DNA of 64,000 bases from Crambe crambe. Its lineage: Eukaryota; Porifera; Demospongiae; Poecilosclerida; Crambeidae. The DNA lies in NCBI GenBank assembly GCA_963924555.1, contig OZ004585.1, forward strand, positions 4,043,488-4,107,487. Direction: 5' to 3'. A model generated the notes under the pieces. The model searched no databases and was not told the origin of the DNA. It saw only the letters and a list, made by a program, of their open reading frames with translations. This document shows, in pieces, positions 4,014-63,900 of the stretch. Made by a program: the position numbers and the translations under genes. Position 1 is the stretch's first letter. Every line of letters begins with the position of its first letter.

Positions 4014-4159
4014 GTAATATAGCTCATTTTATATCGGTCAATTATTAAACCTCAGCACACATTTGCCTGTCTCTCTCTTTGTCTGTCTGTCTGTCAGTAA
4101 CCCCTCCTAATCAAATCTCATAATTTCCACTATATACTATAGGGCTATCTCTACTTATA

Positions 4160-4690: not shown

Positions 4691-4716
4691 AACAATGAGA
4701 TTTATAGTTCTCCAAT

Positions 4717-6611
4717 TAGTCAGGTCAATTTCGCAGAATTTTTCATGAAATCGTTACCAACTGGACCAAAGCATAATTTTTTGTAATGTGATTTATCATA
4801 CCATATTAAAGCTATTCAGAAGGGGTGCCATTGAATTTTCACTATGGAAGCAAAAGTATGAAGCTTCAAACTTTTTACCTTGAAGTTGCGCTATGCGCGA
4901 AATATATTAATTTCGCTCATTGCACAGCTACAATAGTAAAAATGACGCGAATTTTAATTTCGCGAAATTAAATTTACTTTTTTGGCCTGCAACCATTTTG
5001 GGTGTGCAGATTGGAAGTGCTGTGTTATTTGTGGAGGGGAAGAGGATCTTAAATGCCCAGCAGATAGTTATCAAGGGCTTGAAATTTACAGCAGCTTTCT
5101 CCAAACTATAATGTTTACCAGCTGTAGTGAAGTTCAGTGAGAATGAAGATGCTGAATCATTCATGACAAATAGAGCTAAGTGGCACAAGGCATGTCACCT
5201 GAAGTTTGCCCCTTTGAAGCTCGAGAAAGTAAGAGTAATAGCTAAACGATCAGTTGAAGTTGAAAATGAGGAGGAGCAAAGAAAATCGAAACGAAAAAGA
5301 GTTAGAACTCCTAGTGTGGTGTATTTTGCTCTGAGGTAGGTGATAAACTTCATAATTGTTCCACAATGAATCTCAATACTGAATTGAGAAGAATGGCTAC
5401 AGAGTTACAAGATACAGCTTTGCTTGCTAGGATTTGTGGGGATGACTTAATAGCTATAGAAGCCAAATACCATTAGCTATAACTGTCTTTCAAAGCATAA
5501 AAATAGGTATCGAAGTGCACAAGAAGCTAAGCACTATCAGTGAAGATAATAGTATAGTTGATGCTCAAGTATTTGTTGAATTAGTATCCCATATTGAGGA
5601 TAGTGTTGAAGCTGGCAAATTCATTTTTAAGCTGCCTGAGTTGCATGGTTTATATGAAAATCATTTTAAAACCCTTCAAGTTGAGAGTTAAAGCAGTAGC
5701 TGCTTGATCACTTTGGTGATAGATGTCAGTAGCAGTCAGATGGCAAGGCTACATTATTTCAAGGCTTACAGAAATTGTTGAAGGAAGCTGTTGCTGATTG
5801 ACAATCAGAAATGTTAGCTATGGCTAAGGTTGCAAAAAGATTAAGAAAAGAGATGTTAGAATGGAAGCCTCCACAGTTTGCAGGCAGCTTTCCATCAGAC
5901 TGCCAGAGTAAGTCAGTGCCTAAATTGCTGAAGCTTTTTGTGAATTTGTGATGTAGTATGAAAATTTAGCTGAGTCACAGACTACACTAACAATTTCACA
6001 GCTAATATACTTTAGCTAATGTAAAAGTTAATAGACCTACAAAAAAGCTTCATCTCTTGAACAGAAGTATCATGAACCTCCACTTCCTCTTTATATTGGT
6101 TTAAGTATCTACACACATAGCTACCAGGACTAGTATAGAATGGGAATCAGTGTTAGTTATAACCGTATTTTGGAATTGGACTTGCTTACTGTATAATAAT
6201 GTATGGAAGCCAGTGTGGACAAATCTTCCAGAGATAGCAAAAGCCTGTCAAGAACTTTTGAAATGTGGCTGTCAAGCACACCCCTTATGCTCAAGAAAGT
6301 GCAAGTGTAAAGATGCAGGGCTCTCTTGCACTACTTTGTGCAATTGCAGTGGAAATTGTAATTCATGATCAATTTATATTTCGTGCTTTTTTATTTTGCT
6401 ATGTAATCTCTATGGGTAGCGAAAATTTAAATTTTCGTGCTTACCGCAAAACAAAAAAAAATCTAAACAAAATGTCATAAAAACTCTCCAAACCACTCAA
6501 ACTGATGGCACCCCTTATAATTTTCTTTAGTATGGGTTCATAAATGATGTTATGAAGTTTCACATTTTGGTCCACTTCGTAACAATAAAATATAAAATTG
6601 ACCTGACTAAA
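4717..6611. mobile_element. TIR transposon relic carrying a cysteine-rich gene fossil
   Basis: The left end TTAGTCAGGTCAATTT is repeated inverted at the right end, and homology continues inward (CAACTGGACCAAA against the inverse of TTTGGTCCACTTC). The 1.9-kb interior carries fragments of the same protein family found at 26.0-29.3 kb. The target duplication is unclear. Inserted inside the Ig1-Ig2 intron of locus A. Confidence 0.55.
4990..6368 (+). pseudogene. Fossil of the cysteine-rich, PIN-like repeated gene family
   Basis: Three pieces in different frames: an N-terminal Cys pair near 5010-5090 (VICGGEE...LKCP), a basic stretch at 5127-5336 (AKWHKACHLKF then KSKRKRVRTPS), and the C-terminal Cys-rich module at ~6230-6368 (CGCQAHPLCSRKCKCKDAG then CTTLCNCSGNCNS). 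The order matches the other copies in this window. Stops and frameshifts separate the pieces and the middle domain is largely lost. Not translatable as one protein. Confidence 0.55.
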
Positions 6612-6679
6612 TAGCATAGCAGCTTGATATCAAATTATTCGAAATTATAATATTACTCAGCTAGCTACGGTAGGCTGCA

Positions 6680-7384
6680 AAAAAAAGTCCCCGTTCCGTC
6701 CACGTAGAACTGGCGTTGCACGCCTTGACCGTTGCCGTTTTCACACAGTCCCCCGTGCGTTTAATTTTCTACACCGTTTAACATCAAGCGTTGCACGCCT
6801 GTTCAACGTTCACGAAGAAACGGTAAGAAGTATAGCCATGTACGTACGTAGGTGAAAAAACGTTATTATAAAACGTAACCCTAAGCCTAAAAGCTTATAG
6901 AACTATGCGTAGCTATCTCTCTAGGCTGACTAGCTATCTCTCTAAGCTGACTAGCTTATGTTGGCACTAGAGCTAGCTAGCTAGCTAGTTCTGCACTTAC
7001 AGCTAGCTATAGTATAACACCACCATGATGTTCTATTATCAGTGAGATGAAACTTTACAGACACGATGAAGGCAGAAGAAATTGTACCACCACTAGCATG
7101 CACAAGTCGATATCTAGCTACGTAGAGCTCAAGGCCTTCCTCGGAGACTGCCTGCAGGTCATCTCGCTGTCGATCTGCTGCTGATGAACGTTTTTGCTGG
7201 AATAACTGCGTGCTTTCATACCGTAAAAACGTTTAGTAATTTCGAACCCAACTACGTACGTTTAATTGGGCCGTTCAACGCAAACGCCTGCTTTGCGTTC
7301 ATAAAGCGTTCGCACACGGTTTTTTTTACAACGCTTGAGCGTTCTACGGACGTTGTACGGCAACGCAACGGAAACTTTTTTATG
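6680..7384. mobile_element. CGTT-rich TIR element inserted in another repeat
   Basis: The ends are inverted and similar: AAAAAAGTCCCCGTTCCGTC on the left, and GGCAACGCAACGGAAACTTT near the right end, followed by TTTT. The interior is unusually dense in AACG/CGTT. The flanking sequence on both sides (6615-6679 and 7385-7520) matches one continuous stretch of the repeat at 46360-46560, so this is an insertion. Confidence 0.5.
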
Positions 7385-7985
7385 ATGAAGACCGTAAGCT
7401 CTATCAACTCGGGAATTATAGATTCACCAATCCATCTACCAGTAGACTCTATTTCAGATTCATCTGCATCCTCGACCTCCAAGTATAGCTCAACATTTCA
7501 AGCCTTGACTCACTGAGAAATCATTGGGTACGTATATGCGCATGCGTATTATTAAAAAATGGCTTCCAATGATTAAGTTAGTCGAGTACTGTACTCCGTA
7601 GTGTCTCCTTTTACATCGACTCTTTCGAGGATTGACGAGTACAAAAGATTGTAGCTGGTAGAATTTGGAGTGGATTTATCCAGAAATGATAGCTATAGCT
7701 TGAGTGGTTTGAGAGATATGGTTGTCTAAGAAGAAGAAAAGAAGAATAGAGAAGAAGAATCCAGCGATTTACCTGCTTGCCGTATTTCTGAAACAGTAAA
7801 TTTCCTGGTCCTGAAACTTGGTCTTTACTTTGTAATAGGTTCTAGTAGGCTGGATAATCATTCACAGTAGCTTTTGTTAAGTCTAAGTGGGGGAACTAGA
7901 ATTCTGTATTAGTCTATAGGTGGTGCGCGCAGCCATCCATGTCATCCCTACATAGAGAGAGCTACTGCTCTCTCTGATTATGTTC
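7385..7985 (-). repeat. MITE-A copy, partly inverted
   Basis: Reverse-complement match to 53296-53822 and 45655-46300: inverted GAGAGTGC-type end at 7955-7980, CTTAGACAACCATA and the GAGTCGATG block. The part at 7385-7520 reads in the opposite relative orientation to the copies at 46 kb, so the copy contains an inversion. Confidence 0.5.
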
Positions 7986-8069
7986 GCTAATTAATATTGC
8001 TAATAATGTCACGTTTCACACCTACGAAGAGCAATAGTATTATTAAAGTACTAATTGCTTTTGATACAG

Positions 8070-8512
8070 GACAACCAGTTTTCACCTCTTGTCCTGGTAA
8101 ATATGAAGTATGTCCTTCAGGTGAAGATATCACTGGTACAGCAAATAATAATGTTTCAATAGACACCAGAGTTACTTTCAACAATGGTGGATTTTGTGAA
8201 ATGACTAAAAGAATCAGATTATTGAGAATTTTGAAGAACCAAGATCAAGTGTACCTCTGTTCTAATTTGAGAACTTTCTCCACGCAACTCTGTGGAAACA
8301 CAAGTTCAGAGTGGAACAACAGCAGACTTGCAATGAATCTAATATCACCCTCTGTAAATATGACATGAGATTAATGCTTTTGAACTTTAGTCGATTGGAT
8401 GAGGGAGTATATGACGTTGTGATAGAATTTGAAAATGATCCCATTGGAAGAGGAACACTGAGACGACAATTTAATATAACTCTATTATCAACAAATGAAC
8501 TACCAAATAATG
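8070..8512 (+). pseudogene. Locus A Ig2 exon with a frameshift
   Basis: Acceptor TTGATACAG, donor GTATAT. The first frame reads through DTRVTFNNGGFC and QVYLCSNLRTFSTQLC; after 8310 the homology continues in another frame (EQQQTCNESNITLCKYDMR, then VYDVVIEFEND). Locus B has the same domain uninterrupted, which shows that a base is missing or two are extra near 8308-8311. Confidence 0.8.
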
Positions 8513-8640
8513 GTATATAATTTATAGCTAGTTCCATGCGCCACCACCAGTTGTTTCTAATTTTCAGCATAATAATATTTTATCAATTCATAAAACTGCC
8601 AATTTAGAAAATTTATGGCTAATTATTTTTTTCTCACTAG

Positions 8641-8721
8641 ATTCCTTTGCCACAAACTTTACCACAACTGTCTTCACAACAACTGTTTTCACAACCTTCA
8701 TAACACCAGCTACACCTGAAG
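8641..8721 (+). CDS. Locus A Thr-rich stalk exon
   Basis: 81-nt phase 1-1 exon after CTCACTAG, ending before GTAATT. It encodes a Thr/Phe-rich stretch (TTTVFTTTVFTTFITPATPE), probably an O-glycosylated membrane-proximal stalk. Confidence 0.6.
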
Positions 8722-9409
8722 GTAATTTCTAGCAAATTTAGCATGGAATTGCATGATCCTCCAATTGTAGAATTTATTTCTACAGTGTTTGTCATATAGA
8801 TTATAATGGCAGGCCCATAGCCAAGGGGCTTCTAAAATATCCACACATGAAAAAAATTTGTCTGACCACACCTTTTTTCCCTAACCACACATTCTTGGAT
8901 AAACTGCACCCATCATAAACAGTGCTGCAGTTTTTGATATGAGGCCATCAATCAGGTAAGGGAAATCATGAGTATAGATGATGAAGATGGTACCAGCCTA
9001 TTTGTAGCAAGACTTCAAGTTCATGTGGTCTCAAGCGCTAATTGCTTTAAAGCCTCAGTAGGGCTGAGTTATAGCTATAGCTAAAACTGACATAGCTAAT
9101 AGGCTTTGCTTGACTCGTTCTCCATGTTTCTCTTGCTTTAAGCTCACAAACATTTCACATGCACAGAAAAAAATGTGCAATTACTGCTGGCCACTGGCCA
9201 TTTTCTGACTGGCTCAACAATTTCAACTTAGTCAGACATTCTGTCATAACAAATTCAAGAAGTCACATTCATAGATACAGTATACTCAAAGAAGATACTG
9301 ACCAGCAAAAAATTCCAATAATAATATTATTTGTACAAAAATTAATGTCCTATCAAACTGAAACTCTTATTTTGCACACTGCAGAATATGCATGCACACA
9401 TGCGTAGCT

Positions 9410-9410
<1 letters not shown>

Positions 9411-9442
<32 letters not shown>
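9411..9442. repeat. Poly-C tract
   Basis: An uninterrupted run of 32 C in the intron between the stalk and TM exons of locus A. Shorter C or G runs occur at ~4370, 36110, 41160, 54690 and 59038. Confidence 0.95.
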
Positions 9443-9444
<2 letters not shown>

Positions 9445-9595
9445 CTACAGACCTCCATAGATTGTTGTAGGCTAGGTTTATCTAAACAACAGTATGTAGC
9501 TACCCACTACTTTGCTACTAAGGAGTTGAAATACATTTCTAAAAGCTACATAAGAATAGGTATTTTACCTTAATCTTTCTTTCCCTCAAACATAG

Positions 9596-9771
9596 GTTGT
9601 ACAGCTGGAAGTGTAGTTCAGATTGTGGTTCCAATTGTGATTATGGTTCTGATTATCATGCTTCCAATTCTGATTGTGATAATATTATGTATTTTACGTT
9701 TGAGAAAAAAAAGTAGAATAATACTTATTGTCACTCTACAATGGAACCTCAGTATAATAGAACTCACTTAG
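9596..9771 (+). CDS. Locus A transmembrane exon and short tail
   Basis: Acceptor CATAG at 9591-9595. The exon starts in phase 1 (Gly-Cys-Thr) and encodes a long hydrophobic run (IVIMVLIIMLPILIVIILCI), then LRLRKKSR, ending at TAG 9769-9771. The last ~15 codons may be intronic or repeat-derived, because a possible donor (GTAGAA) follows RKK. It would anchor the receptor in the plasma membrane. Confidence 0.6.
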
Positions 9772-14672: not shown

Positions 14673-16306
14673 GACTTAAAAATGATTTAAATTGATTGTA
14701 GCTGGATATGTTTAAGTTAGAAAATTTTACGGCATTCATACGAGCAAAAGGAGAACAACAAAGTTAAGCTCACTGCTAAAAAAACTTATGCAACACCATT
14801 AATGGCTTTAGTGCTCTTTAGTGCTCATTATAACAAGAGTGATACTGAATTTTTTTTTGAGATAGGATGTTAGGTGTGCATCATTAAGAAAGGGATCTAT
14901 AGAAGTAATGTTAGATACAACGGATGAATAATTAAATAGATTACACAATACAAAGGATAAGTGTGCACTGTAAAGAAAGGGGTAGTTGTTAAGTGTGCAT
15001 TATTAAGAAAGGGATCTAAGTTAGTGCAATGAACGAATAATTAAATTGTAGTACAACAAAGGGTAGTTATGATAAGTAAACTATCTTACATAGGTACATT
15101 TTACCTCCACAATAGTGGTGCACATTTGGTGGATGATGGTGTGCATGGTGATCTTGGGAGGTTTGATGACTGGTTGGGAGAGAATGGTGAGGTTGGAGTG
15201 GCTTGTACAGAGGGAGGGAGTAGTAGCGGTATGGAGGTGGAAAGTGGTAGAGGTGCATGTGATATGAATGGAGGAGATGGTGACGAGTATGTAGAGTTGA
15301 GCACTGAGGAGTTGGTTGAGGAGGCAATGAGGCGTGTGGACTTTGGTGGTGAGGTGAAATTTGAGCTGATGCCGGGTGAGATGAAGGAAGATTTGTTTGT
15401 GGGGCAGTTCATGGAGGGGGGTGTGGATGTGTGTGGAAAGGAGATCAGCTCATTACAAAAGAACACGACATCAATAAGTGAGGTACCTAACTTTACAATA
15501 AAGTTCTTACCCCATGTGTTCTTGATCCTTTCTCATGGTAGATTACAAGGTTACAAGCTAAAAAGCATAACATACAAGGTATCTTACAGCTTCAGCTTAA
15601 CAAAGTAACTCACCTAATTGTAGTGCTTCATCCTCTCTGCTTCAGAATAGCCTATTTTTAAGGTTATAGAAGCGCTAGAGACAAGCGAAATAGCAGTTAC
15701 TTGGTAAGCTTCATAAACAGTTAAACTTCAATACTGCCCTTTAAAAAATTACCTCTTGTATTCTTCCAGTAGTAGTTCATTTCCAGACTTAGTCAGTTGC
15801 TAGAGGTAGGGTTACATGAATGACTAAACACATACAAAAGAAAGCTTCCTTCTCCATCCTTTCTTGCTACCACGCGGTTACATTTAAATCAATGATGTAA
15901 TCCATAACGCGGAACTACGTGAAAGATTACGGACCAAGACTAAAGAAGAGGAAATGAAGTAATCAATGATTTAACTTCCTCCTGAGGCAAAGAATTCAGC
16001 GCGCGTGTAACTTAGTGATCGTTTAGAATTTGGCTTCGGGCCTAGTACCAATCTACTCCCCGAGGTATGAACTACCATGCTATGTAAATAACTCAATTTT
16101 AAATTTTTGCGCGATATTCCCCTTTTTTCCAAATCCTAGGCCGCATATTGTGAGCATAGCAGGCCGCGCGCGCTATGGCACGGATAGTCCGCGAATTTGG
16201 GGAGTTTCCAATCCTGTTCCGTGTAATATATCTATGCTTTAACTTTAAAATCCCTCAAAATACATTATAGTATAAACTAGACCTATTATTATTTTTCATA
16301 CTTCAG

Positions 16307-16679
16307 AGAGAAGTGCAATAACAGTTACCCCTTCATCCCTAATGGTTACAATTGGTGACACAGCTGTCTTTCATTGCAATGCTAAAGGAAGTAATATCAG
16401 TGTGAGATGGATAATTAACGGATTATCTTGTGGTCCTGATAGCTGTCAACAGAATGGGACATTTTTATCTAGAATTGAAACCAGAACAGATAATAGCATC
16501 ATGATCAATACCACCTTAGAGATCAGGACTGGTGAATTTCATCTCGTCATGATGAGGAAAAGCTACACCATTCAATGCAATGTGGAACAACATCTGGACT
16601 CTTCATCACTCGGGAAATGATGCTAACATCACTGCCATGTTAATAGTGAATCCCCAACTAGTAACTGGATCAGATTTTG
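16307..16679 (+). pseudogene. Locus C Ig exon with a one-base insertion
   Basis: Reads SAITVTPSSLMVTIGDTAVF through to QCNVEQHLDSSSL; at CTCGGGAAATGATGC the frame hits TGA, but one base less gives GNDANITAMLIVNPQ, which is the expected end of the domain. The exon then ends in phase 1 at GTGAAG (16680). This could be a real lesion or a homopolymer error in GGG/AAA. Confidence 0.7.
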
Positions 16680-16913
16680 GTGAAGACTTTCTCCCCTTCT
16701 TTATATAGCTAAGTGGTAGTCCACGTTATACATTACTTTGTAGATATCTGAATCTAATGTGACTGATCTCACAGAATCCTTCTGATAGGGCACTACACTA
16801 TTACATTTATATCAGTTTCATTCAATCTCTCAAAATAGACACTTGTAGTTATAAGTGTTCTGGTTACAGAGGCTTCTTGTAATGGGTTCCATTCATACTT
16901 TCTTGTTTTTAAT

Positions 16914-16950
<37 letters not shown>

Positions 16951-19135
16951 ACATTATACAGCCCAGTTAGATGTATCCCTTTTTATTTAGAAGAAATTTT
17001 TTGTGCTCACTTATATATATACATTTTCTGCACTCCTGGTGAGGTGCTGGACATAGCTATAGCTTTCATACTTATAGGATGTATTTAAATCATAACTATA
17101 CGTAAAAAGGGCTAGCTTGATACATAGGTCATAAAGTATGATTCAGTATTATGTAGCTGCAGTGTATACATAGTGACAGATTTCATTTATGCAGTGACTA
17201 CTGCACCAGAGACCACTACAACAGAAACCACTGAGCCAGAGACCACTGTACAAGAGACCACCACTGATCAATTGACTGTACTTACAGGTACACTTTAATA
17301 CCACAGGTAGTATACTTTTAATGATTAATAGTGTTAGCTAATTATCATAATAGAACAGTTTAATTATGATGATGCATCTCTTGTTTATTGTTCATGGTCA
17401 AAATTCATTAGCTATAACTTTGGAAGAGAGGTTGACTGTGTAAAAATGATGACCAGACCTAATTATTAATACAGCCTGAGTCTGTTTTTTGCCTCGGCAC
17501 TTCGGTGCCGAGGCGCAGTGCTGGAAGCGACTATGATCGGCGATATGGTGGTACATGGTACGTTTCACGCGCACGCGCAAGATGCACCATGATGCGTATC
17601 GAGCACGTGCATTAATTTAGCTCTAGCTAGACATAAAGTACTAAGGACAAACAGACAGGCTCAGCTCAGGCTCGCAGTTACTACGCGATAACTCTAGTGG
17701 CCGTCTTTGCCAACAAATCAAGTCCATTATCACATGCAGAGAACTGACTAAAAGACAGCAGTGAACAAAAACAACAGAGATTGCAAGGAACACGAACTAG
17801 TGCTTCGTTTGAAGTGTCAAAGAGAGAGCCATGGTGAAGGAGCTCAGAACAAAGACTTTAGGCTTCCAAACAATGAGAGAATCCAGTACACATACTTCAA
17901 TCAAGCTATGCTGAGAACAACCATTAAACGACAGTTCCAAATCATTGAACAGCAAGAATAGTGTGTAAATATTAATCTTACTACAATAATTATAAGCCAT
18001 GTTGCTCAGTGTGCATTATTTGGAACTCTCCACAGAAGAGAAATATTTTGGCAACATTTTGTAGAAACATTTGACCCCACAACCCCCCACACTTTTCATT
18101 AATTATGTCCATGAGTGTTCAGCCAATCATCCTTGTAGGACTCTGGTTTCAAGCCGGTGATCCTCGGTGTATCTTTATCGTCTTTTATATACCACTGTCA
18201 CGTCGTATTCACTGTAAAGCATTTAAAAGTAAAATAAAATAGCTAAATTTAGAGGTTACACTTAAGTGCCGAGGCATTCCTAGTCTTTTTAAAAGACTAA
18301 CTTGTTAATGTTATGTATGTATAATTATAATATTATCGTTATAGCTAATAATTCTCCACCCCAGATTTAGTATTATTCCAACTTCGACTGAGTAGTGTTT
18401 CTGACTGTATTCAGCGGAGAGCACTATCTAAACTCAGAGATGTCACCAATACGATGGTCCAAGTAACAGAACAAGTCTGCAGGTGTGGTTTCATGTCATC
18501 CAATATTTTGGAGGAAAGATTTGTATGTTTCACTCCTCAGTCTCCACATCATGTGACCTACAGGGCACAAATCAATAGGACATCACAGGCTACAACAGAA
18601 CAACTAGTGACTTTCATTCAGCAATGGGTGATGACTAGTCAGTCCATCCTCATTCAAGGTGTGCAACTCAACATCAACAGAACATGTGACTTTGTGATTT
18701 CAACATTTAATGATGTGGAATGTTCTAAAGATACTCCTTCAACAGAATCAGATGTTGCCACTACTGTCAAGATGATCATAATGAGCAGGGATTATGTTGT
18801 AGTAACTGCTATTGGCAGTACTGCAGCAGCAGTGCTGGTTGTACTCATTGGAGTCGCTATTTATGCTGTCTCTATTATTATGTGGAAAAGTTTGGTGAAG
18901 TAAGTTCATCATAATTAGCTACTATAAATGAACTAGTTAATACAAGCCATAGTAAATAATTATTTTGCTACAACTCACAATTTTTCTATACCCAATACAT
19001 AATACAGGAAAAAAACAGTCACCAACGAACATTACCAGTTGTAACCTCACTGAAAATCAAGCTTATGGTGTAATGCCTAACAAATTGAGTGATGACATTG
19101 ATAACATTAATGTAGTGTATGAAGAGATTATATAG
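16307..19135 (+). CDS. Locus C: Ig receptor with YEEI tail motif
   Basis: Exons: Ig 16307-16679, Thr-rich stalk 17195-17287, ectodomain plus TM 18365 to ~18893, cytoplasmic tail from ~19010 to TAG 19133-19135; ATTAAA follows at 19170-19175. The upstream exons (signal peptide) are not identified; 9953-10279 may be a lost one. The Ig domain has Cys in FHCNAKG, Trp in VRWIING and Cys in YTIQCNVE. The 18365 exon encodes ~130 residues with several Cys and N-glycosylation sites, possibly SEA-like, then a TM helix. The tail has NQAYGVM and VVYEEII; phospho-YEEI is the classic Src-family SH2 ligand. There is one frameshift in the Ig exon (extra G near 16612-16614). The TM-tail splice is ambiguous: the strong donor GTAAGT does not give the long tail frame, whereas GTGAAG with a later acceptor does. 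The intron before the tail holds no kinase exon. Confidence 0.65.
16914..16950. repeat. (TTG)n microsatellite
   Basis: About 12 perfect TTG units in the intron after the locus C Ig exon. Confidence 0.95.
17195..17287 (+). CDS. Locus C Thr-rich stalk exon
   Basis: 93-nt phase 1-1 exon after TTTATGCAG, before GTACAC. It encodes repeated ETT/PETT units (APETTTTETTEPETT), a mucin-like stalk. Confidence 0.7.
17485..18307 (+). mobile_element. Helitron-like repeat H, copy 1
   Basis: Begins with TTTTTGCCTCGGCAC, whose GCCTCGGCAC/GTGCCGAGGC forms a perfect hairpin. It ends with AAGTGCCGAGGC, then the hairpin AGTCTTTTTAAAAGACT and AACTTGTTA. The same ends occur at 32540-33350 and 56630-57334 with different flanks, so these are mobile units. 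No target duplication is seen. A short frame (ERIQYTYFNQAM) is shared with copy 2 but looks non-coding or decayed. Lies between the stalk and ectodomain exons of locus C. Confidence 0.65.
18365..18893 (+). CDS. Locus C ectodomain and TM exon
   Basis: Acceptor CCCAG at 18364. Starts in phase 1 with DLVLFQLRLSSVSDC and encodes a globular part with Cys in VCRCGF, FVCF and TCDF and NXT sites (INRTS, NRTC). A hydrophobic TM stretch follows (VVVTAIGSTAAAVLVVLIGV, continuing AIYAVSII), then WKSL. The length and hydrophobic pattern suggest a SEA-like fold, but no cleavage motif was confirmed. The exon end could be 18893 (GTGAAG donor) or 18899 (GTAAGT donor). Confidence 0.65.
19010..19135 (+). CDS. 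Locus C cytoplasmic tail exon
   Basis: After an AG acceptor (19008-19009, or 19020-19021 if phase 0 is used) the long frame reads SPTNITSCNLTENQAYGVMP, then NKLSDDIDNINVVYEEII and stop. It has two tyrosines in SH2-type contexts (NQAYGV and VVYEEI). Confidence 0.6.
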   Translation, partial: KKQSPTNITSCNLTENQAYGVMPNKLSDDIDNINVVYEEII

Positions 19136-34403: not shown

Positions 34404-35158
34404 TCAAAATTTCTCGATAATATGTACACAGTTACCACCATAGTCAGCTACATATATCTTTCCCTCACTATCAACTGTTATGCCTATAAGATCTGTAAAC
34501 TCTTTTCTCTTTAATGAAGAGAGGTAGTCTCCTTCAAGATTGAATGCATATATTTTGCGCTTTTTACTACGTTTATCATCAACCAATACTCGGTTATTAG
34601 AATCAACACATATTCCCTTAGGTGAGCGAAGTTTTTTACTACCAAAGTGTCTGATGAATCTTCCATCAACATCAAAAACCTGTATACGATTATTGTTAGT
34701 ATCTGTAACATAAACAGTGCCATCATTGATCACTGCAACATCACGTGGTTTATTAAACTCTTCCCTTTCCCCACCAAATATATACTTGAGAAATTCAAGA
34801 TTCAAGTCCAGCACTTGTATCCTGTTGTTCTCTTGGTCTGCGATGTAAACTCTTCCCAATCTTTGATTAATTGAAATACCACAATTACCATTTATCCCAC
34901 CAACAGATTTGACAATGACTCCTTCGAAGGTGTACTTTGTGATGGATTCATTTGCTGTATCTGTAATGAATATGTGTGTACCATCTGTTGATACTCCTCT
35001 GGGACGTGGATTTCTCTTTCCTCGGAGTATAAAAGAGTGGAGTTTCTTTTTATCTTTAGAAAAGATCTTGACATGTTCAGCAGAATCATCTCCAACTATT
35101 ATTATCTCATCATCATCAGTCACTGCTAGCATAGTAGGACTTGAGAAATTGATCACTC
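34404..35158 (-). CDS. Locus B NHL-repeat exon
   Basis: Acceptor TTATCATTGCAG, then a phase-1 start (Gly-Val-Ile-Asn-Phe) and an open frame to TGA 34404-34406. Six NHL blades are visible, e.g. RPRGVSTDGTHIFITDT, RLGRVYIADQENNRIQVLD, KPRDVAVINDGTVYVTDTNN, SPKGICVDSNNRVLV and LIGITVDSEGKIYVADYGGN; the first (SPTMLAVTDDDEIIIVGDD) is more diverged. The first in-frame ATG (35130-35132) lies within blade 1, so a stand-alone start is unlikely and an upstream exon is required. Confidence 0.9.
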
Positions 35159-38100
35159 CTGCAATGATAAAAGGATCATTAATTGTTTCCCAGAGGAAAC
35201 TGCATGGAGCACAAGCAGTAGCTAAATATCACATTAAATACACAAGCATCATGTTTTAGCTACGCAACGTATAGCTAGCTAGTTAATTATCTTTTAAACA
35301 ACAGCTACTTTTACTGTCTACTTGTGATGTGTCTATACTTGTGATGTGTCAGAGTAATCACTCTTCATGACTATAATTACCTTTTTTATCTTGTACCATA
35401 CTCTGCTTATGTGCGCCTTGTTCCACCACCAGGCCCGTGTCATTGTCCCCTGCTCCCCCACCGTGCTCTGCTCCATCTCCCCCACCGTGCTCTGCTCCAT
35501 CTCCCCCACCATGCTCTGGTCCATCACCATGGCCTGCTCCACCACCAAGCCCTGCTCCTACACCAGGTCCTGCTCCCTCACTGTGCCCTGTCTCTCCACT
35601 GAGCCCTACCCCATTGTGCTCTGCCACCCCATTGTGCCCTGCTCTCCTACCAAGCTCCGTTCCCCCACTGGGCCGTGCTTCTCCATCATGCCCTGCATCA
35701 CCCCTCATCCATTTCCAAGCTATGACAGTGATGATAATTAGAATGCCAATGATTAATGTTAATGTGATGACTACTCCAATGACTATCCCAGCAATTTCAC
35801 CAGGGGGAATTCCTCCTCTTGAATCTGTACATTATAGGGAAAATTGCAAGACGAAAGGTATAACCATGACAACGCATTGTTTGATTAGATTTATAAATTA
35901 TACCTGTGGTGGTTGTTGCAAAGGTTGTCATGAAGGTATCTTTACAATATGCAGAAAGAAGGAGAAGAAAGAAAGAATGAAAGAAAGAAGAGATCGAGAA
36001 GAAATAAATAAAGAAAGAAAGAAAGAAAGAAAGAAAGAAGAAAAATCAAAGGAACAAAGGTTATTAGCTCTTTGCTATAATAATTATGCTAGTTGGCGAG
36101 TGAAGCAAACCCCCCCCCCCCCCCCCCCATTCATGGAAATTGAGATTTTAATACATGTCATATTTAATACATAATTATGCACATACATATGTTTCACCTT
36201 TGACCCCACAAATAAAGCAATATACAGCTAGACCTTATTACTTATTACTTTCTACAGCATTTTGTCATAAAGGATTAGGCTTATCTAAATGGATTGTAGG
36301 CACTTGGCTGTGGTAAGCATTATACAGCCTTCTGTGTATGTAACTGTATTATAACTTCATCCTGACACAATATCTTAGCTTAAGAATTTGAAGTACAAAT
36401 GACTTTCACCAATGTGGAATTGCTTCACTCGCCAATTAAATATGCTACACGAACATACCCTAGTTTATACTTTGAAAGTTACTGGGCAAATGAAAAGCAC
36501 ACATAGTGCTGTGGCGCTCTCTAACAAGGGATGACCCATGACCCTCCATAGGACTAACACAATGGATATTGCAGGTGTTTCATGAAATTCATAGCTCTTG
36601 CGTTGAAATGTTGGGTCATAATCAAGTGATAAACTTAGTGAGACTAAAATCTTTAGGCTACAAAGGGAGTGATCAGCTCGTAGTTTGGTAATAGTTGGTG
36701 ATAAGGAGTTACTTGCTTGTTGCCCTTGAGTTAATCTTGCCTCCCCCTTAGATTATATGCACAGAAAAATGAACAGCTAATAATTATTGTCAAACTGATA
36801 CTCTTCTTGACTTTCTCTGCCATACATCCATCCTCCAGATCACTACTTAAGTACAATTCTTTAACTCAATACACAAAATTGGCATTTACTTATGAAAATG
36901 GTAGCTAGGAGAATTAGCCAACAATGAGTCCTCCAAAATATTTCTTTCTCCCACACCCTCCACCTCACAGCCACATGGTCATCTATACCATGTGCAGATC
37001 CACCCTTTCCTTTGCCCCCCTCCCCCCTTCTATATCCCAGATTTGCAGTAAAAGCCCTAATTATGATTAACAGATATTTCTAATTTGGATGGAAGTTTGT
37101 AGACATGCATGCCTTGCCCTAGCTCTGGTGGTTCTTACCATTTGGTAATCCTTTTGATAGTGTTATATTGAATTGCTGTGTCAGCATTCCCCTTTCATTG
37201 CCATCATTTTCAAATTCCACAGTAATATTGTACATTCCAATATCAGATTCTCTGAAATCCAAGAGCACAATTTTCATATCATATTTACAGAGGGTGACAT
37301 TTGGTTCGATGCAAGTCTGTTGCTGCTCTATTCCAAACCTTTCATTACTAGTACAGAGTTGGGTGGAGAAAGTTATCAGATTAGAACATAGGTACACTTG
37401 TTCTCTATCCTTTCTAACAGTTAGTGTTCTGATATTTTTGATCATATTACAAAATCCACCATCAATAAACTTTATTCTTGTGTCTATTGATACATTATCA
37501 TTCACTGTAGCAGCAAGTGGCACAATTGAAGCATTATCATCAAAGCGAGAAAAAACAGGTTGTCCTACATTAATGAAAATATTGAAGGATGACTTTTTCT
37601 TCAAGTTAAAGTATACACATGCATAGCACATTACCTCGTACAAACAAGCACAATGATGCTGGTTGTATAGTATTGTTATCCACTCCACAATGGTAGGTGC
37701 CTTCTGCAAAACCATTAACCTCACGTATGGTCAACTCATTTCCATTTTGGCGAAATGAATCATTCAGAGTTAAAGGTGCTCCTAAATCATCCAGTGAGTC
37801 ATTCCCATTCATGTATCTCCTTATGAACCAGGATGAAGAAGATGCATCAGGACCAGAGCACCGTGCTGATACTTGAATGTCAGAAAAGGGATCTACAGCT
37901 AAAGGCAGAGAGTACAATAATTATTGTAACGTTGTGACCTTAGTAGATAGCTTCAATGTTGTATGTTTGCTTAATTAGTATAGTCATAAACTGTCTATCT
38001 CATGATCACCCCATGATCACCTTTGTGTCAGTCACTAACTATAAAAGAATAGTCAGACTAGTCTCATCTGCTCTCTCTCTCTCCTTCCAAAATTATTCTG

Positions 38101-56100: not shown

Positions 56101-58286
56101 CGTGTAGGTACCTGGCGAACAGAGAAATCTTACACAAAATAAGAAAGAGGGTGAAAGGCAAGGTATTTAGCGCAGCAATAATTATGATTATAAGTGAAAA
56201 GGCTCAATGACCTATAGCTGTAGTAGTTTATCATGTCAGTTTAGTCAATTTACTGTTGCTATGGAAGAAAAACATGGAAACAGGTAACTGAAAAGTTTTA
56301 TGGCACTCCTACTACTAAAATAGAAGTCTAGCTGCCTTACTTTTGGTATAAAATGAAAGATACTAGTTGACCGTATGTACTCAAGTAGTTTTAATTTTGT
56401 GCAGGGCTGGAGATGGCATGCCATTTGCCATTGATGGTGTAAGAAGCCATTTCACTATGTTGTTGTTCTTATATGATGAAATGAGATACCTTCTTGTATC
56501 AGGGGCAGGAAAGGATACACTGGGGCAGCTTTACTCTTCATCTTGATCCCCCAAAACAAGTATATCACAACAAATCGCTCGATGAATTGAATGTTCAGCA
56601 GTGCACTATCAGTACTTGTTATTATCATTTTTTTGCCTCGGCACCGAAGTGCCGAGGTGCAGTGCTGGGATCGACTATGCGTGGTACGTACGTACATCTT
56701 AATAGTAGCACACTGCGCGTTCATGTACACCCACGCAATACATTGCATGCGCATGTGCAATTAAAAAAAAATGGAGTAGGCCTAGCCACTATAGATTTAC
56801 ACATAGAAATCTCAGAGAATCGATCGAGAGACAGCGAGAAAGTAACGGACAGTAACAGCAGAGACGACAGTCCAGGCGATACATGTATGTGCATCCTACA
56901 GGCCACGCCAGGCAACACTCAACAGGAAAGGCTTAGAGCGTGAGAGAACACCGACTACATGCCAGAAAGTAACAGCAGAGACAACAGTCTAGTTAAAGCC
57001 AGGATTATCAGAAAGTAACAGCAGAGACAACAGTCTATATCTAAGAAAGCCAGGACCACTGAGAGAACGATTACGAGCCAGAGGCGACCACATGTGATCA
57101 GCTAGACATCAGGAAAGGCAAGAACAATGAAATCAAAGACTATACAGGCCTTGCATGGAAGTGAGCATTTGAGAAGGGCACTGAGACACAAGTAAATTCA
57201 TCACAGGAATTGACATTTGAATCATCTGACTTATTTAACATAGACCCTTCAAATTTGAATTTCAACAGTGTCATTGTTCCATATAGCTAGCTACCAGTGC
57301 CGAGGCATAAGTCTTTTTAAAGACTAACTTGTTATTATAACATGAAAGGAAATATGTGTAAAGTGACAGTATTAGTTGCTACATTATAGTATCCTTCTTT
57401 ACTATAGCTTTTCTTGACAGCCAGCCATGGGTAATCTGAAGAAACAGTAACATTGATATTTTTTTTTACAGGCACCTTTAAAAAGTACATATGAATGATC
57501 ACTACCTAACAGATTAGTGGAAAAAAAAGAGACTATACTTTTAATATCCAAGCTCCAGAGGTCCACAAAGTCGAACTACCATTGTTACTCGCAATTATAC
57601 CCTCTAACACTTGAGAAATCAGCCTTTTTAAGAACTTGCTTGTTTAGCAATATACTAGCCCACTCTTTGCATTCTTTAAACTTACCAATTGGCTATAGTT
57701 TAGCAGAAATTTGGCACACTACTTCTCCTCCCCTGTTTGTTTGGGGCAATTTAGCATGAATAGCTGCCTACACGGATGTCAGTATTGTCGTTATGGGCGC
57801 ACGTGACCTGTTTCCAATCCTGTGTACGTAGTCTAGTATATCTATGGTCGCTCACTGTCAAATATTGCACATTGCCCTAGTCTTAGTACTTACTGCCATC
57901 ATAGAATGATAGTTTAGTGAGGCCGGTAGGACACCTCATTTTGCAATGTTGACAACCTTTACTTATCACATCAAAATCAATCATGCGCGTGCATTAGTTC
58001 CATAACTGTGTATACTTCTATTAAATGTCTGTCTGCATGCTGAGCATGTACTCCTAAAATCCCATGTGGATTATTTGGCATACAAGAGGTTTCCATTTGT
58101 GCACATCCACACATTATCTGTTCACAATATCTATTCAAGCATGAATTCAGTGTTTAATATCTTACTTCTTGATATGATCCCACCATCTCTACATATATCT
58201 TCCAGTCCACATCCATAAGCAAAGGAAGCGATAGTTCCCTGAAGTAGCAATATTGACGTCCACACAAACATCTTAGCTATCTGCAT
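34404..58286 (-). CDS. Locus B: Ig - TM - NHL propeller receptor (predicted, 681 aa)
   Basis: Six exons in transcript order: signal peptide 58166-58286, Ig1 37635-37898, Ig2 37139-37564, Thr stalk 35904-35939, TM plus linker 35381-35824, NHL 34404-35158. All junctions are AG/GT and phase 1, and the lengths sum to 2046 nt with no internal stop. Predicted protein: a signal peptide of ~22 residues, two Ig-like domains, a short Thr stalk, one TM helix, a ~110-residue Gly/His/Glu-rich linker, and a C-terminal six-blade NHL beta-propeller in the cytoplasm. NHL propellers bind protein or RNA partners in TRIM-NHL proteins. Weak points: the 20-kb first intron, so the signal exon could belong to another gene, and the linker-NHL join. 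If read through, the linker exon stops at TGA 35358. Without that join the NHL exon would lack an N-terminal half. Paralogous to locus A in its first exons. Confidence 0.65.
35381..35824 (-). CDS. Locus B TM and Gly/His-rich linker exon
   Basis: Phase 1-1 exon of 444 nt: DSRGGIPPGEIAG, TM helix IVIGVVITLTLIIGILIIIT, stop-transfer WKWMRGD, then a low-complexity Gly/His/Glu linker with a 27-bp tandem unit (EHGGGDGAE repeated). The donor GTAATT at 35380 follows QDKK. If that donor is not used the frame ends at TGA 35358. Confidence 0.7.
35904..35939 (-). CDS. Locus B Thr stalk micro-exon
   Basis: 36 nt, phase 1-1: DTFMTTFATTTT. Flanked by AAAG and GTATAA. It corresponds to the Thr-rich stalk exon of locus A (8641-8721). 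Confidence 0.5.
35958..36055. repeat. (GAAA)n-like purine tract
   Basis: An imperfect GAAA/AGAAA run, followed at 36111-36128 by a run of 18 C. In a locus B intron. Confidence 0.8.
36129..37138. other. Locus B intron, no feature seen
   Basis: The intron between the Ig2 and stalk exons. It contains a diverged piece of the repeat seen at 52.0-53.1 kb (GGCTTATCTAAATGGATTGT near 36278). Otherwise nothing recognised. Confidence 0.5.
37139..37564 (-). CDS. Locus B Ig2 exon
   Basis: 426 nt, phase 1-1, intact. Contains ATVNDNVSIDTRIKF, DREQVYLCSNLITFSTQLC, IEPNVTLCKYDM and SDIGMYNITVEFEND. Several cysteines and NXT/NXS sites. It is the intact version of the frameshifted exon in locus A. Confidence 0.85.
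37635..37898 (-). CDS. Locus B Ig1 exon
   Basis: 264 nt, phase 1-1: AVDPFSDIQVSARCSGPDAS, SSSWFIRRYMNGNDS, EGTYHCGVDNN. Ig-like with a Cys-Trp-Cys core. Equal in length to the locus A Ig1 exon. Confidence 0.85.
37899..39700. other. Locus B large intron, first part
   Basis: Non-coding, AT-rich. No recognised element. Confidence 0.5.
39701..39775. repeat. Perfect-stem hairpin
   Basis: Arms AGTCTCGTTCCCAGATCGCT and the inverse (one mismatch) around an A/T-rich inner stem (TTTTTCTCCCT) and a 12-nt loop. Same style as 26596-26648. Confidence 0.75.
40724..40815 (+). repeat. Dispersed repeat R2, copy 1
   Basis: GAGCTGACTCTCAGGTCATG through to CTCCAAAATGCCCCAGGC. Also at 52380-52470 and 55325-55412 in the same orientation. 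Confidence 0.75.
40944..42628 (+). mobile_element. Foldback-like element FB1, left arm with minisatellite
   Basis: 40944-41600 (starting CCCGTGTTGAACTTTGC) is the inverse of 47926-48518. It continues into a minisatellite at 41600-42628 with ~45-bp units (CCACATGACTACAAAGCCCA, ACATATATCAGACTGCCAG). Within it a ~230-bp higher-order unit is repeated about three times (41640-42320). The terminal arm is rich in CGCG-type words; a C run lies at 41161-41179. Confidence 0.75.
42629..43115. repeat. 487-bp near-perfect palindrome
   Basis: Arms of ~235 bp (ACAAGTGAATGCAAAAATTT ... GAGTGAAGTAGGAATAGTAT) are almost identical inverted, with a centre of only ~15 bp near 42870. No coding. A MITE-like foldback directly abutting the minisatellite. 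Confidence 0.9.
43185..43846 (+). mobile_element. 662-bp TIR element G, copy 1
   Basis: Ends GTGACCGGCTCTGGGAAAAC and the inverse. AATT on both sides may be the target duplication. Inverted copy at 44985-45649. A diverged related segment lies near 39960-40120. No coding. Confidence 0.8.
44071..44984 (+). mobile_element. Foldback-like element FB2, left arm with minisatellite
   Basis: Starts CCCGTGTTGAACTTTGCGCG; 44071-44500 is the inverse of 50530-50947. Then comes minisatellite 44500-44984 with units ATGTTGGGCTTTGTGGTCAT, inverted relative to the FB1 left arm. Confidence 0.75.
44985..45649 (-). mobile_element. 665-bp TIR element G, copy 2 (inverted)
   Basis: Reverse complement of 43185-43846 with few differences. 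Inserted at the end of the FB2 minisatellite. Flanks TGATATA and AAATTTA show no clear duplication. Confidence 0.8.
45655..46134. repeat. Tandem duplication of a 240-bp MITE-A end
   Basis: 45655-45894 and 45895-46134 are nearly identical (ATCAGAGAGTGCGGTAGCAC ... TTCTTCTTCTTCTCTAT); the main difference is AATAATAG versus AACAAAAG. Confidence 0.9.
46135..47810. repeat. Tandem pair of ~850-bp MITE-A plus foldback units
   Basis: 46135-46986 and 46987-47810 each run: ATT-rich tract, CTTAGACAACCATATCTCTC, GAGTCGATGAAAAAGGAGAC, the ACGCATGCGCATG block, then a complete foldback MITE (46676-46986 and 47525-47810). This is a segmental tandem duplication with small differences. Confidence 0.75.
47811..48518 (-). 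mobile_element. Foldback-like element FB1, right arm
   Basis: A short minisatellite (47815-47925, GTTGGGCTTTGTAGTCATG) is followed by the inverse of 40944-41600, ending GTTTAACACGGG. Confidence 0.75.
48519..49688. other. Intron stretch with CACGCCC-rich repeat remnants
   Basis: Near 49050-49210 several CACGCCC/CCACGCCC words cluster (AAGCCACGCCCCCTT, TCACGCCCCTGTACCACG), and CGGGACGGGACAG/GACTGTCCCGG words follow at 49475-49530. They look like decayed repeats. No gene seen. Confidence 0.4.
49689..50015. mobile_element. 327-bp MITE with ~32-bp TIRs
   Basis: Ends GGCCACTATTTATAGAAT and the inverse, continuing as TTTCCTGTCCA. TTA on both sides may be a 3-bp duplication. The centre carries the hairpin CTAGTCTCGCGCCCCGCGAG. 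Confidence 0.75.
50240..50947 (-). mobile_element. Foldback-like element FB2, right arm
   Basis: A minisatellite (50242-50530, CATGACTACAAAGCCCAACA) is followed by the inverse of 44071-44500, ending GTTTAACATGGG. Confidence 0.75.
50948..51970. other. Non-coding stretch with one unrecognised 65-codon ORF
   Basis: The frame at 51063-51260 (HRKIFKHMEGLFKKVMMHAY ... SPSVQAESTSGESGH) ends at TGA and has no recognised motif. Weak. Nothing else seen. Confidence 0.35.
51971..53130 (+). repeat. Cluster of diverged repeat R3 units, with R2 copy 2
   Basis: The unit GGCTTATCTAAGTGGATTGT ... GTGCTTGTGGTAAGTATTTA ... ACATGACTCTTGTCTCTGAC ... GAATACTTGCTTGCTCGCT recurs about four times (starting ~51975, 52145, 52575, 52890) and again at 55765-56030. 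An R2 copy sits at 52380-52470. Confidence 0.7.
53296..53822 (+). repeat. MITE-A copy
   Basis: Begins TATCAGAGAGAGCGG and contains the GTTCCCCCACTTAGACTTAA, CTTCTTAGACAACCATA and CTCGACCTCCAAGTATAG blocks shared with 7.4-8.0 kb and 45.7-46.6 kb. Diverged from the others. Confidence 0.65.
53823..54597. other. Non-coding stretch
   Basis: Pyrimidine-rich segment near 54040-54250 and a G run at 54277-54283. No gene recognised. Confidence 0.5.
54598..54720 (+). mobile_element. Helitron-like repeat H, truncated diverged copy
   Basis: TTTTGTCTCGGCATCTGAGT then GCTGAGACACAGTGCTG is a diverged version of the left-end hairpin of repeat H. The right end is missing; a C-rich tract follows. Confidence 0.4.
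54721..55324. other. Non-coding stretch
   Basis: AT-rich, no recognised gene or repeat. R2 copy 3 follows at 55325-55412. Confidence 0.5.
55413..55750. mobile_element. 338-bp MITE with 5-bp target duplication, inserted in R2
   Basis: Ends CAGGGGCGGATCCAGGGA and the inverse (CCCTTGGATCTGCCCCTG); flanked by CATAT on both sides (55408-55412 and 55751-55755). It splits an R2 copy whose undisrupted form is at 40800-40815 and 52455-52470. It also contains three GCGAAGGTTAGCTAGTTA-like units. Confidence 0.8.
56032..57846. mobile_element. 1.8-kb TIR element with CATAGATATA ends, inserted in R3
   Basis: Ends CATAGATATACTAGACTACG and the inverse, continuing as GGATTGGAAACAGG, as in the 10.6-16.2 kb family. 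The flanks GTCACTC and GTCGCTC are a 7-bp duplication with one mismatch. Undisrupted relatives of the target lie at 52308 and 53097 (ACTTGCTTGCTCGCTCGCTG). Contains repeat H copy 3. No transposase frame. Confidence 0.8.
56630..57334 (+). mobile_element. Helitron-like repeat H, copy 3 (nested)
   Basis: Left hairpin TTTTTGCCTCGGCACCGAAG; right end CAGTGCCGAGGCATAAGTCT, then TTTTAAAGACTAACTTGTTA. The interior differs from copies 1 and 2 (AGTAACAGCAGAGACRACAG repeated at 56850-57035), while the ends are conserved. Confidence 0.65.
58166..58286 (-). CDS. Signal-peptide exon (locus B first coding exon)
   Basis: ATG at 58284-58286, then MQIAKMFVWTSILLLQGTIA and SFAYGCGLEDICRDGG; donor GTAAGA leaves phase 1. 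A hydrophobic h-region and SFA-YG cleavage-type site make a good secretory signal. In-frame ATGs further upstream exist (58374), but the h-region favours this one. It pairs with the locus A exon at 2921. Its link to the Ig exons 20 kb away is inferred from homology, strand and phase. Confidence 0.7.
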
Positions 58287-60970: not shown

Positions 60971-63900
60971 TCAGATCTCGAGTTTATTAGTCTGAGAAAA
61001 TGCTGCAAAATCGAGGTATCCAGCCACTCTTTCCAGTAATGAGTTGATTTTGTGCACCAAATCTTCAAAACAGGGTCTTTTTTCAGGTTCCTCATTCCAG
61101 CATTGAGTAATCAAATTATACCTACAAGAATAATGATAGTAGTAAATTTATGCAATGCCCAATTTGAAACATCTCATCATGAAAGGGGAGCAATGCCCCA
61201 ACCATAGGGGGAGCTTCCCTTGACAATCATGTGAGATATGTATACGACTCCTTACCGAAATGGGCATAATGCTTATTATAGTAATGCATGGCTGAATAGC
61301 AATACTGATAACCCTATAGGATCATGTTCCATGAGGAAAGCTTTGCACTCACACTTGATGTGTGCAACCAGCATTATTGGGTTTCTCCAGCCTCCCTCCA
61401 TTCTGGAGAAATGTGACCAGAGAAAATGGATCAATGACAGGATAAGGGGTGTGGCCAAGACTGAATATTTCCCAACAAGTTACTCCAAATGACCACTGAG
61501 TAAAGAGATAAATATAATACAATCAAATTATCAGAGAGTGCGGTAGTAGGATTAGTCTGGAATGGGTGTGGTTCTCTCATTAGAACAATACAAACTAGAC
61601 TCTCTGTATCTCTTCTATTCTTGCTACAGGCTCAACTAAACTGTTTACATTGGGAAAAAATGCAGAAGATGGTATGTCCCCACAAACTCCTCCAGAACAG
61701 CGTCAACAATCAGCATCAGGCATCTAAATCTAAATTTTTTATGATTCGTTCATCATCATCATCATCATCAGATTCAAAGGCTGTAACTTCATGATCCTTT
61801 GACATACGACAATCGAATTCATATCAACTTGTGCAGTTATAGCCACACAATGTGCTTTTACCATCGTTAGCTATCCACAGTTTTCCTCCAAAATAATCAG
61901 TCATATTGAACGATTTTTCATTATAAACGATACTATGTAAGCCATTTTGAAATTAATGACATCATTAATTTTTATCACACACGCTTTTGTCATGATCACG
62001 CGTGTGCCACCCAGAAAAGTAAGTAAACAAACAAGTGAAAGGAACAAAATTTATGCTAGCTAAATAAAAAGGGGTTAGCTATAGTCTGTACTTTTTACCT
62101 ATAGCAGTTTCAAAGTATGCTGCCTTTAATAATAATAATCCCTACATCACTGCCTAAACCAAGCAGAACTTTTACACTGACATGAACAGCTTGGTGGGAG
62201 GCAGTGATGTAGGGATTATTATTAAGGGCAGCGTAATTTGAAACTGCTATAGACTAACCTTACATGGACTTTCTATTTTTTTTCCTTTCATTATAATAAT
62301 GCCTACACTTAGGTATTGCATTTCATAATTATTGCCCCCATTAGGTAAATACTATTTTATATATTTTACCTAATGGGGGCAATATGAAATGCAATACCTA
62401 AGTACATGTACAATATAATATTGCATGCTAGCTAATTGCATGCTAATTAAATAGGATGCTTGCAACAAATCATCGTCTTGAATTTTACTCACTACATCAG
62501 TCTTCTCAGAGAATATCCCATCAATAATACTTTCCAAGGCCATCCACTTGATCGGGAGTTTCACTGAGGTCTCCTCCCCTTGTCTGAAATAATTAGTAGT
62601 GCATATTTCTTCACTGAGGCCGAAATCCCCCACCTTGATCAAAAACTGCTCATCAATCCTGTTATCATTATAATAATAATTATGTGCATAATAATAATAA
62701 TTATGGCCTATCATTAGAGGGAAGGGAGAGAAATAATTATTTTAATAAATTTGGGGTTGAGGGTTTAAACGAATTAAAATCCTTAACTCTTCTTTCCTCA
62801 AGCTGTATATTATGGGGTTATGCCCCCTTCTAGGCTTCTACCTTCCCATCCCCATGCAGTTTTAGCTATGTATCGTACATGCAGTTTCGAGCTGCCAAGT
62901 CCCTATGTACAAACTTCTGTTTGGCAAGGTAACTCATTCCCTTAGCAACCTGAAGACACATTGACAACAGCTTTCTTTGGGAATCTTCGATCTTATGGAA
63001 ATATGAAGAGAAAAAATTTGTAATAACATCAGTATATATCTTTATACCACTTCATCTCCAGCATCTTTTGCTATTGTAAGACATGATCTCTCCTTCTTTA
63101 AGTAAGTCAGGAGACTGCCATTTGCCATAAAGGGCATGACAACATATGGCCTTTCTCCAACGTCAATGCAAATTCCAATCAGATTCATCACATTTGGGTG
63201 GTTGAACTTCTTCATTCTTTCACTTTCTGCTATCAGATCTTCAATATTTTTAGCTGAATAGAAACCTGCGTAATGAATAAAATATGACAATATAGCTGGT
63301 CATCGCAACATGAAATTCCCTAATAGCTAATGCTGTCAGGTTCAACAGCAAAAGTAATAATTGTTACTACATGAAAACGTTATACCATTATACAGAATAG
63401 TATAAAATACATGAAAATTGTAAACAGGAATAAGCCTTACAGTATTATGTAGGTAAATGGATCAATAAGTTGATGACCATTATAAAAGGAATTATTTGAA
63501 GGATCCAGCAAAAAAGGGTAGCTAGCTACTGTTACTTTAGATAGGAAATTAATACTTTAACAATGAAAAGTATGCCATCACAAGGACATATTTCATCTCC
63601 TAAAAAGGTGCATGTAGCTATATCTCCAAAAGTATGTACATTTTTTTTTTACTTTTCAATGTCTTGACAGCTACAACTTCTGCTGTAGTCCTTCCTTGCC
63701 AGCTTGTGAGATAACTTTGATATACCAATCCAAACTCCCCTGTAATAGTATCTATGGATAAAAAACTCACACAAGAATATAATAAAGAGTAGCTGAATTT
63801 TTTTCAAAGGGATTCTTGTGGATGTGCACGCTATGTATGTTTGGAAAGTTGCTCATGGTTGTTAATTAGTTAATGTATACGAATGACATAATCTTCAGAG

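Follow-up and report, generated by a model that had tools for sequence, protein, structure and literature searches.

The NHL propeller is known from the TRIM-NHL proteins, among them TRIM2/3, TRIM71/LIN-41, Brat and Thin. NHL propellers bind proteins or RNA. The propeller described here, encoded in the genome of the sponge Crambe crambe, belongs to the same family, a 17-row NHL profile matching the NHL domain of TRIM71 with an E-value of 2.5e-75. Unlike the TRIM-NHL proteins, the gene in the window (the whole stretch of 64,000 nucleotides that was analyzed) has signal, Ig and transmembrane (TM) exons, and a tblastn comparison of the window with two TRIM-like relatives revealed no RING, B-box, coiled-coil or filamin part. 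Ig-domain receptor tyrosine kinases, one of which is encoded on contig C20 of the same genome, have the Ig ectodomain and the single helix in common with the window gene, whereas the predicted inner domain of the latter is an NHL propeller and not a kinase. Among vertebrate receptors, the genes of the LILR, KIR, Siglec and CEACAM families by description occur in clusters, share a near-uniform first Ig exon and differ in their tails; these tails carry ITIM or ITAM peptides, whereas one of the tails found here is a propeller. Vertebrate paired receptors keep a common ligand through a near-uniform Ig exon. NHL propellers in single-pass membrane proteins occur in the teneurins and in bacterial PknD, chains of which were among the matches of our NHL profile. 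The propellers of teneurins and PknD are, however, located outside the cell, while that of the window gene is predicted to be inside. In sponges, an Ig ectodomain is joined to an unusual inner domain in the 'non-canonical TLRs', where this domain is TIR (PMC8242945) and not NHL as in the window gene. The Figure 1 legend of the same paper, on Halichondria panicea, includes both IG and NHL among the pattern-recognition receptor domains, and, as far as the available part of the paper goes, the pair may be drawn there. No Ig-TM-NHL receptor was recognized in the open PMC literature searched. As judged from the sequence, the Ig-TM-NHL combination is a real, unusual receptor architecture within the Ig receptor kind.

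The window corresponds to C8:4043488-4107487 of the 143-Mb assembly, which comprises 119 contigs. On the minus strand, we modeled a gene of six exons (Table 1) with phase 1 at every junction and an open frame of 2031 nt (676 amino acids) from the ATG at 58271. The joined frame of 2046 nt given in the preliminary description is also open, and use of the in-frame ATG 15 nt further upstream (58286-58284) would account for the difference in length. Exon 4 is the least certain of the predicted exons, and the frame is open also without it. Splice sites were scored over all candidate sites with a generic table, independently of the sites picked by eye. The GTAATT donor previously proposed to end the TM exon in phase 1, at 35380, had the highest score of the 23 GT dinucleotides after the helix. 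Likewise, the proposed phase-1 acceptor of the NHL exon, ending in TTGCAG before 35158 and leaving an intron of 222 nt, was the best of eight AG dinucleotides before the NHL start. Past the donor, the frame of the TM exon reaches a stop (TGA 35358) after 22 nt. The tail in exon 5 is encoded by tandem repeats of 18 and 24 bp (35453-35644, minus strand). The Gly/His-rich tail of the preliminary description is thus present in the window TM exon, but it is not a conserved part of the receptor, as it was seen in this copy only among the eight TM exons compared.

Table 1. Predicted exons of the Ig-TM-NHL gene, in window positions
Feature	Position	Strand	Remarks
Exon 1, predicted signal peptide and start of mature protein	58166..58271	-	Ends in phase 1; in-frame upstream ATG 58286-58284
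Exon 2, Ig1, V-set-like, W and YxC present	37635..37898	-	Phase 1-1
Exon 3, Ig2, divergent Ig-like	37139..37564	-	Phase 1-1
Exon 4, putative 12-codon Thr-rich stalk	35904..35939	-	Phase 1-1; from splice sites and frame only
Exon 5, predicted transmembrane helix and Gly/His-rich tail	35381..35824	-	Phase 1-1
Exon 6, NHL propeller, 250 residues, and stop	34404..35158	-	Entered in phase 1

The identity of the propeller was evident from Pfam, where the 250 residues of exon 6 scored 112.8 bits against PF01436 (cut-off 20) and four stretches passed singly. A single-sequence AlphaFold model of the NHL domain had a pLDDT of 64.8. Foldseek searches with this model placed the NHL domains of TRIM3 and TRIM2 at the top (probability 1.00, TM-score ~0.43, rmsd >12 Å), and the predicted structure is taken to be right only locally. 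A RING or B-box exon upstream of the NHL exon had been named beforehand as the observation that would speak against an Ig receptor. When two TRIM-like N-terminal parts were compared with the window by tblastn, the best E-value was 1.5 (1e-70 for the NHL control), which ruled out an ordinary TRIM-NHL gene with overlooked exons.

The Ig-like domains are less firmly identified, and all Ig assignments fall under the Pfam cut-offs; the joined ectodomain scored 23.3 bits against V-set (cut-off 26). An Ig2 profile matched Ig chains of sodium channel beta-2 and CD80 in the PDB at E-values of 0.006-0.03. Seven of 20 Ig2 rows matched V-set at E-values up to 1, with an equal number matching an unrelated viral family. 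The D-x-G-x-Y motif is kept in Ig2, the usual following Cys being absent from 19 of the 20 rows, and the single-sequence structure model of Ig2 was poor (pLDDT 35.2). Hydropathy indicated a hydrophobic exon 1 and a helix in exon 5, that is, a predicted signal peptide and one TM helix. In the flanks compared, all eight TM exons had no Lys or Arg in the 9-10 residues before the helix and one to seven in the 4-15 residues after it; these flanks were cut by hand, and an Arg is present immediately outside them, toward the outer side, in the window gene and in loci L034 and L035. By the charge rule of thumb, the Lys/Arg residues after the helix, taken together with the N-terminal signal peptide, favor a location of the NHL propeller on the cytoplasmic side. 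The window also contains an Ig-like receptor candidate on the plus strand (16276-19135). It combines a Thr-rich frame with a helix and a short tyrosine-containing tail (YGVM, YEEI), and it scored 24.3 bits against Ig_3, below the cut-off of 30.

Genome searches with the individual exons gave, as lower bounds, at least 33 matches for Ig1, at least 43 for Ig2 (fragments included) and at least 26 for the signal exon, the window exon itself being counted in each case. All 33 Ig1, 43 Ig2 and 26 signal matches were used in the analysis of exon pairing, together with the best 30 of 150 kinase matches and 21 NHL exons, the best of 201 found (~150 of them listed), consisting of the 13 closest outside contig C17 and eight on C17; the NHL matches beyond these 21 are more distant. 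The best 20 NHL matches by E-value were 46-100% identical to the query, 13 of them (window copy included) outside C17 and seven on C17. Eight members of this 13-exon set outside C17 follow a same-strand Ig2 exon at a distance of 1.8-12.2 kb (C8, four; C21, two; C18, two), and an Ig1 exon is found further upstream in all eight. In six of these pairings, no disruption of the Ig2, TM or NHL frames was apparent in the sequence examined. The pairing at C21:4077325 has a frame break in Ig2 and looks broken, as does the NHL copy at C8:4600553, which contains two stops. No TM exon was recognized in the 1.5 kb examined of the pairing at C18:1885574. TM exons were recognized at eight of the 13 NHL loci, seven of these being Ig-linked, and at the other five none was recognized in the 1.5 kb examined. 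Five of the 13 NHL exons had no Ig2 match within 30 kb upstream, yet one of them (C8:6555195) has a TM exon.

With sites picked by eye, each of the eight TM-NHL joins was in phase 1 and gave a frame uninterrupted as far as the NHL stop, the introns measuring 181-1333 nt. By splice-site scoring, the top donor upstream of the in-frame stop is in phase 1 in all eight TM exons, and the top acceptor upstream of the NHL start is in phase 1 at 12 of the 13 loci. In the closest sister of the window gene (L032), the best-scoring acceptor is in phase 0 and the phase-1 site ranks second. For L042, scoring preferred another phase-1 acceptor over the one picked by eye, which fell outside the top three. The proximity of Ig and NHL exons was further compared with random placement in the C8 cluster, a region of 2.7 Mb in which an Ig2 exon on the same strand precedes four of the eight NHL exons by no more than 8 kb. 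When eight NHL exons were placed at random, a mean of 0.38 fell within this distance and four were reached in 3 of 20000 trials, by which chance proximity within the cluster was ruled out; at 15 kb, the observed level was reached in 53 of 20000 trials. The earlier proposal of a single Ig-TM-NHL gene is supported by these paralogues on three contigs, which share exon order, strand and phase-1 TM-NHL junction sites, and, given the paralogues, the Ig, TM and NHL exons very likely constitute one gene. The plus strand of the window carries a further member of this receptor family (2941-9771), with a signal match at 2941-3030, Ig1 at 3752-4012, an Ig2 with a frame break at 7991-8520 and a helix frame at 9574-9771. 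No NHL exon was seen in this gene, which is probably a broken family copy.

The first intron of the window gene is 20.3 kb. In the sister gene, the signal exon is located 14.7 kb upstream of Ig1, and a long first intron is thus common to both genes; the other signal matches are found 0.15-13 kb from Ig1. Furthermore, 25 of the 26 signal-exon matches are followed within 25 kb by an Ig1 exon of the same strand. The spacing in the sister gene and the position of these matches rule out that the signal exon is too distant to belong, and they bear out its earlier assignment to the gene.

The expectation of a propeller, and not a kinase, in the inner half of the receptor fits the gene model, which contains no kinase domain and has its stop in the NHL exon. 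None of the 30 best kinase matches was located within 50 kb downstream of the window Ig1 on the same strand. On contig C20, a related ectodomain carries a tyrosine kinase instead. At this locus (L081), Ig1, Ig2, the TM helix and the first kinase exons are found within 3 kb (PK_Tyr_Ser-Thr, 6.3e-28), preceded at 1.1 kb by a weak signal-exon match (E 0.011), and a second copy on C20 has the same spacing. Ig1 and Ig2 of the C20 gene are 60% and 54% identical to those of the window gene, which makes the kinase gene a more distant branch. Its TM exon, as read by eye, ends in phase 2. TM exons would thus not be interchangeable between tails, and any exchange of tails would have taken place in the phase-1 intron that separates Ig2 from TM. 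For 20 of the 24 Ig1 matches on C8, neither a close NHL exon nor any of the 30 best kinase matches was located within 20 kb downstream. For two of the C8 genes (L085 and L086), no kinase or NHL frame was seen by eye, and no listed kinase or NHL match occurred, in the 4 kb downstream. Two similar Pro-rich frames are located downstream of the Ig-TM gene at L085 (C8:4790810-4794809, minus strand), and these may be exons for yet another, third kind of tail. Tyrosine kinase exons with a DFG motif and their own stop are also present in the window itself, on the minus strand at 60971-63740, upstream of exon 1 and ending 2.7 kb before it; copies 99% identical at the searched exon are found at C8:4028837 and C8:4122858. 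Among these kinase exons, at 62100-62403, there are two nested inverted-repeat pairs (arms of 20-37 nt, 92-100% complementary), which resemble small transposon-derived elements.

Seven close NHL frames are arranged in tandem on C17, where the region C17:1697591-1727461 (L036-L038, L040, L041, L043, L047 and L051) holds tandem genes with B-box, coiled coil, filamin and NHL in a single open frame. These domains were called with Pfam for L036 (B-box, sub-threshold filamin and NHL, RING being absent from that frame) and L047 (RING, B-box, filamin and NHL) and by eye for the other loci, and a RING within the frame was seen only in L047. Maximum-likelihood analysis placed the 12 intact NHL exons outside C17 in one group with a support of 92/89, below the tool's mark of 95/80. 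This group falls among six of the C17 frames; the remaining one of the seven joins other TRIM frames. With moderate support, the NHL exons thus appear to group among the B-box/filamin/NHL genes. The Ig-linked NHL exons do not form a clade, since four NHL exons without a nearby Ig are found among them, and one capture, followed by spread and some loss or separation of the Ig part, would be the simplest account.

An alternative explanation is that the locus comprises two genes, one encoding an Ig-TM receptor whose short tail stops at TGA 35358 and the other a protein consisting of NHL alone. According to the preliminary description the NHL exon has no usable ATG, which is wrong, as an in-frame ATG is present at 35132-35130 and could start such a protein. 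The corresponding Met is retained in 17 of 17 aligned rows, the TM exon has its stop 22 nt past the donor, and 20 of the 24 Ig1 genes on C8 are without a close NHL exon within 20 kb downstream, all of which would agree with two genes. However, five of the 17 rows are TRIM-like frames in which the Met is located far inside the protein, and from its conservation and its internal position in these relatives the Met is probably a structural residue and not a start codon. In L047, the RING-bearing TRIM-like relative outside the alignment, Ser is found in its place. In addition, phase-1 sites face each other at the TM-NHL junctions although the introns vary from 181 to 1333 nt, an arrangement that would not be expected to persist in two separate genes. 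Two genes are in our view very unlikely. A different proposal, which would add to the one-gene explanation, is that alternative splicing or intron retention yields both the NHL receptor and a tailless decoy from the same locus. In all eight TM exons shown, an in-frame stop occurs within tens of nucleotides past the donor, and sister receptors without NHL exist, but a stop shortly past the donor is also expected by chance; the production of both forms is possible, though doubtful.

The coding constraint on the propeller appears weak, as dN/dS values were high (0.61-0.88 against the window copy and 0.32-1.41 across all pairs). These values, and the one copy of 13 with stops, could be taken as a sign that the propeller exon, derived from a TRIM-like gene, is carried along and decaying, with no function in the receptor. 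Against this, the frames of 12 of the 13 closest NHL exons, on three contigs, are open over ~250 codons, with dS to the window copy of 0.20-0.59, and we consider a functionless propeller highly improbable. As to its function, the NHL could bind RNA like the propellers of Brat and LIN-41, in this case at the membrane. The closest solved relatives in the profile and fold searches include TRIM71/Lin41 and Brat, some of them solved with RNA, and the net charge of the window NHL is +3. However, the net charge is negative in 10 of the 12 NHL exons of the group and 0 in one. Charge as calculated from these sequences decides nothing on the function of the window NHL exon, and RNA binding is regarded as unlikely.

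The high similarity of the Ig1 exons is a further feature of the family. Ig1 proteins on C8 and C21 are 82-100% identical to the window Ig1, with or without an NHL exon downstream. In a sample of 13 of the at least 33 Ig1 genes (78 pairs), chosen because both their Ig1 and Ig2 sequences were available, the median dS was 0.21 for Ig1 versus 0.75 for Ig2 of the same genes. In nine of ten comparisons, using a query with only 60 nt downstream, the nucleotide similarity of Ig1 ended within ~30 nt of the exon borders; it extended further in the nearest sister. Gene conversion limited to the exon and constraint on synonymous sites would both fit this uniformity. Considering that vertebrate paired receptors keep their common ligand in a similar manner, the uniform Ig1 might reflect an early-animal paired-receptor system of ~30 genes. 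In such a system a near-uniform, ligand-binding Ig1, kept so by exon-limited gene conversion or unusually strict constraint, would be combined with differing inner halves; in some genes the NHL would dock TRIM-type machinery, others would carry further tails, and the kinase-tailed C20 branch would be an older offshoot. The C20 kinase branch does not have the uniform Ig1 (60% identity), which is a point against this proposal, and we regard it as speculative and rather unlikely. If true, one putatively shared ligand could drive different outputs, e.g. substrate capture by the propeller.

We consider it highly probable that the window contains one gene for a type I single-pass Ig receptor, with a cytoplasmic NHL propeller as its sole recognizable inner domain, within a family in which the tails vary. 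The DNA shows the order and phases of the exons, the open frames, the co-occurrence of paralogues and different tails on homologous ectodomains; topology, splicing, docking and any shared ligand are predictions. The family, clustered as well as dispersed, would combine a homologous signal-Ig1-Ig2 ectodomain with varied tails, namely the NHL propeller (eight pairings), a tyrosine kinase (the more distant C20 branch) and, in most C8 copies, tails that were not matched. The most likely source of the NHL exon would be a B-box/coiled-coil/filamin/NHL gene of the same genome, acquired via a phase-1 exon join. Binding of a ligand outside the cell may lead to clustering of the receptor, and the propeller may then act as a docking platform that recruits cytoplasmic partners to the membrane, perhaps those of the soluble B-box-NHL proteins. 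We infer docking from a propeller that is without an adjoining catalytic domain such as RING or kinase.

If real, Ig receptors that carry an NHL propeller as their inner domain would represent a receptor class with docking, and not catalysis, as its output, and the Ig-NHL join would link surface recognition directly to the TRIM-NHL proteins. The kinase found on a related ectodomain in the same genome makes the change of tails visible and testable. As a clustered family with a uniform first Ig exon, these receptors are candidates for a recognition system, immune or self/non-self, in what is probably an early-branching animal.
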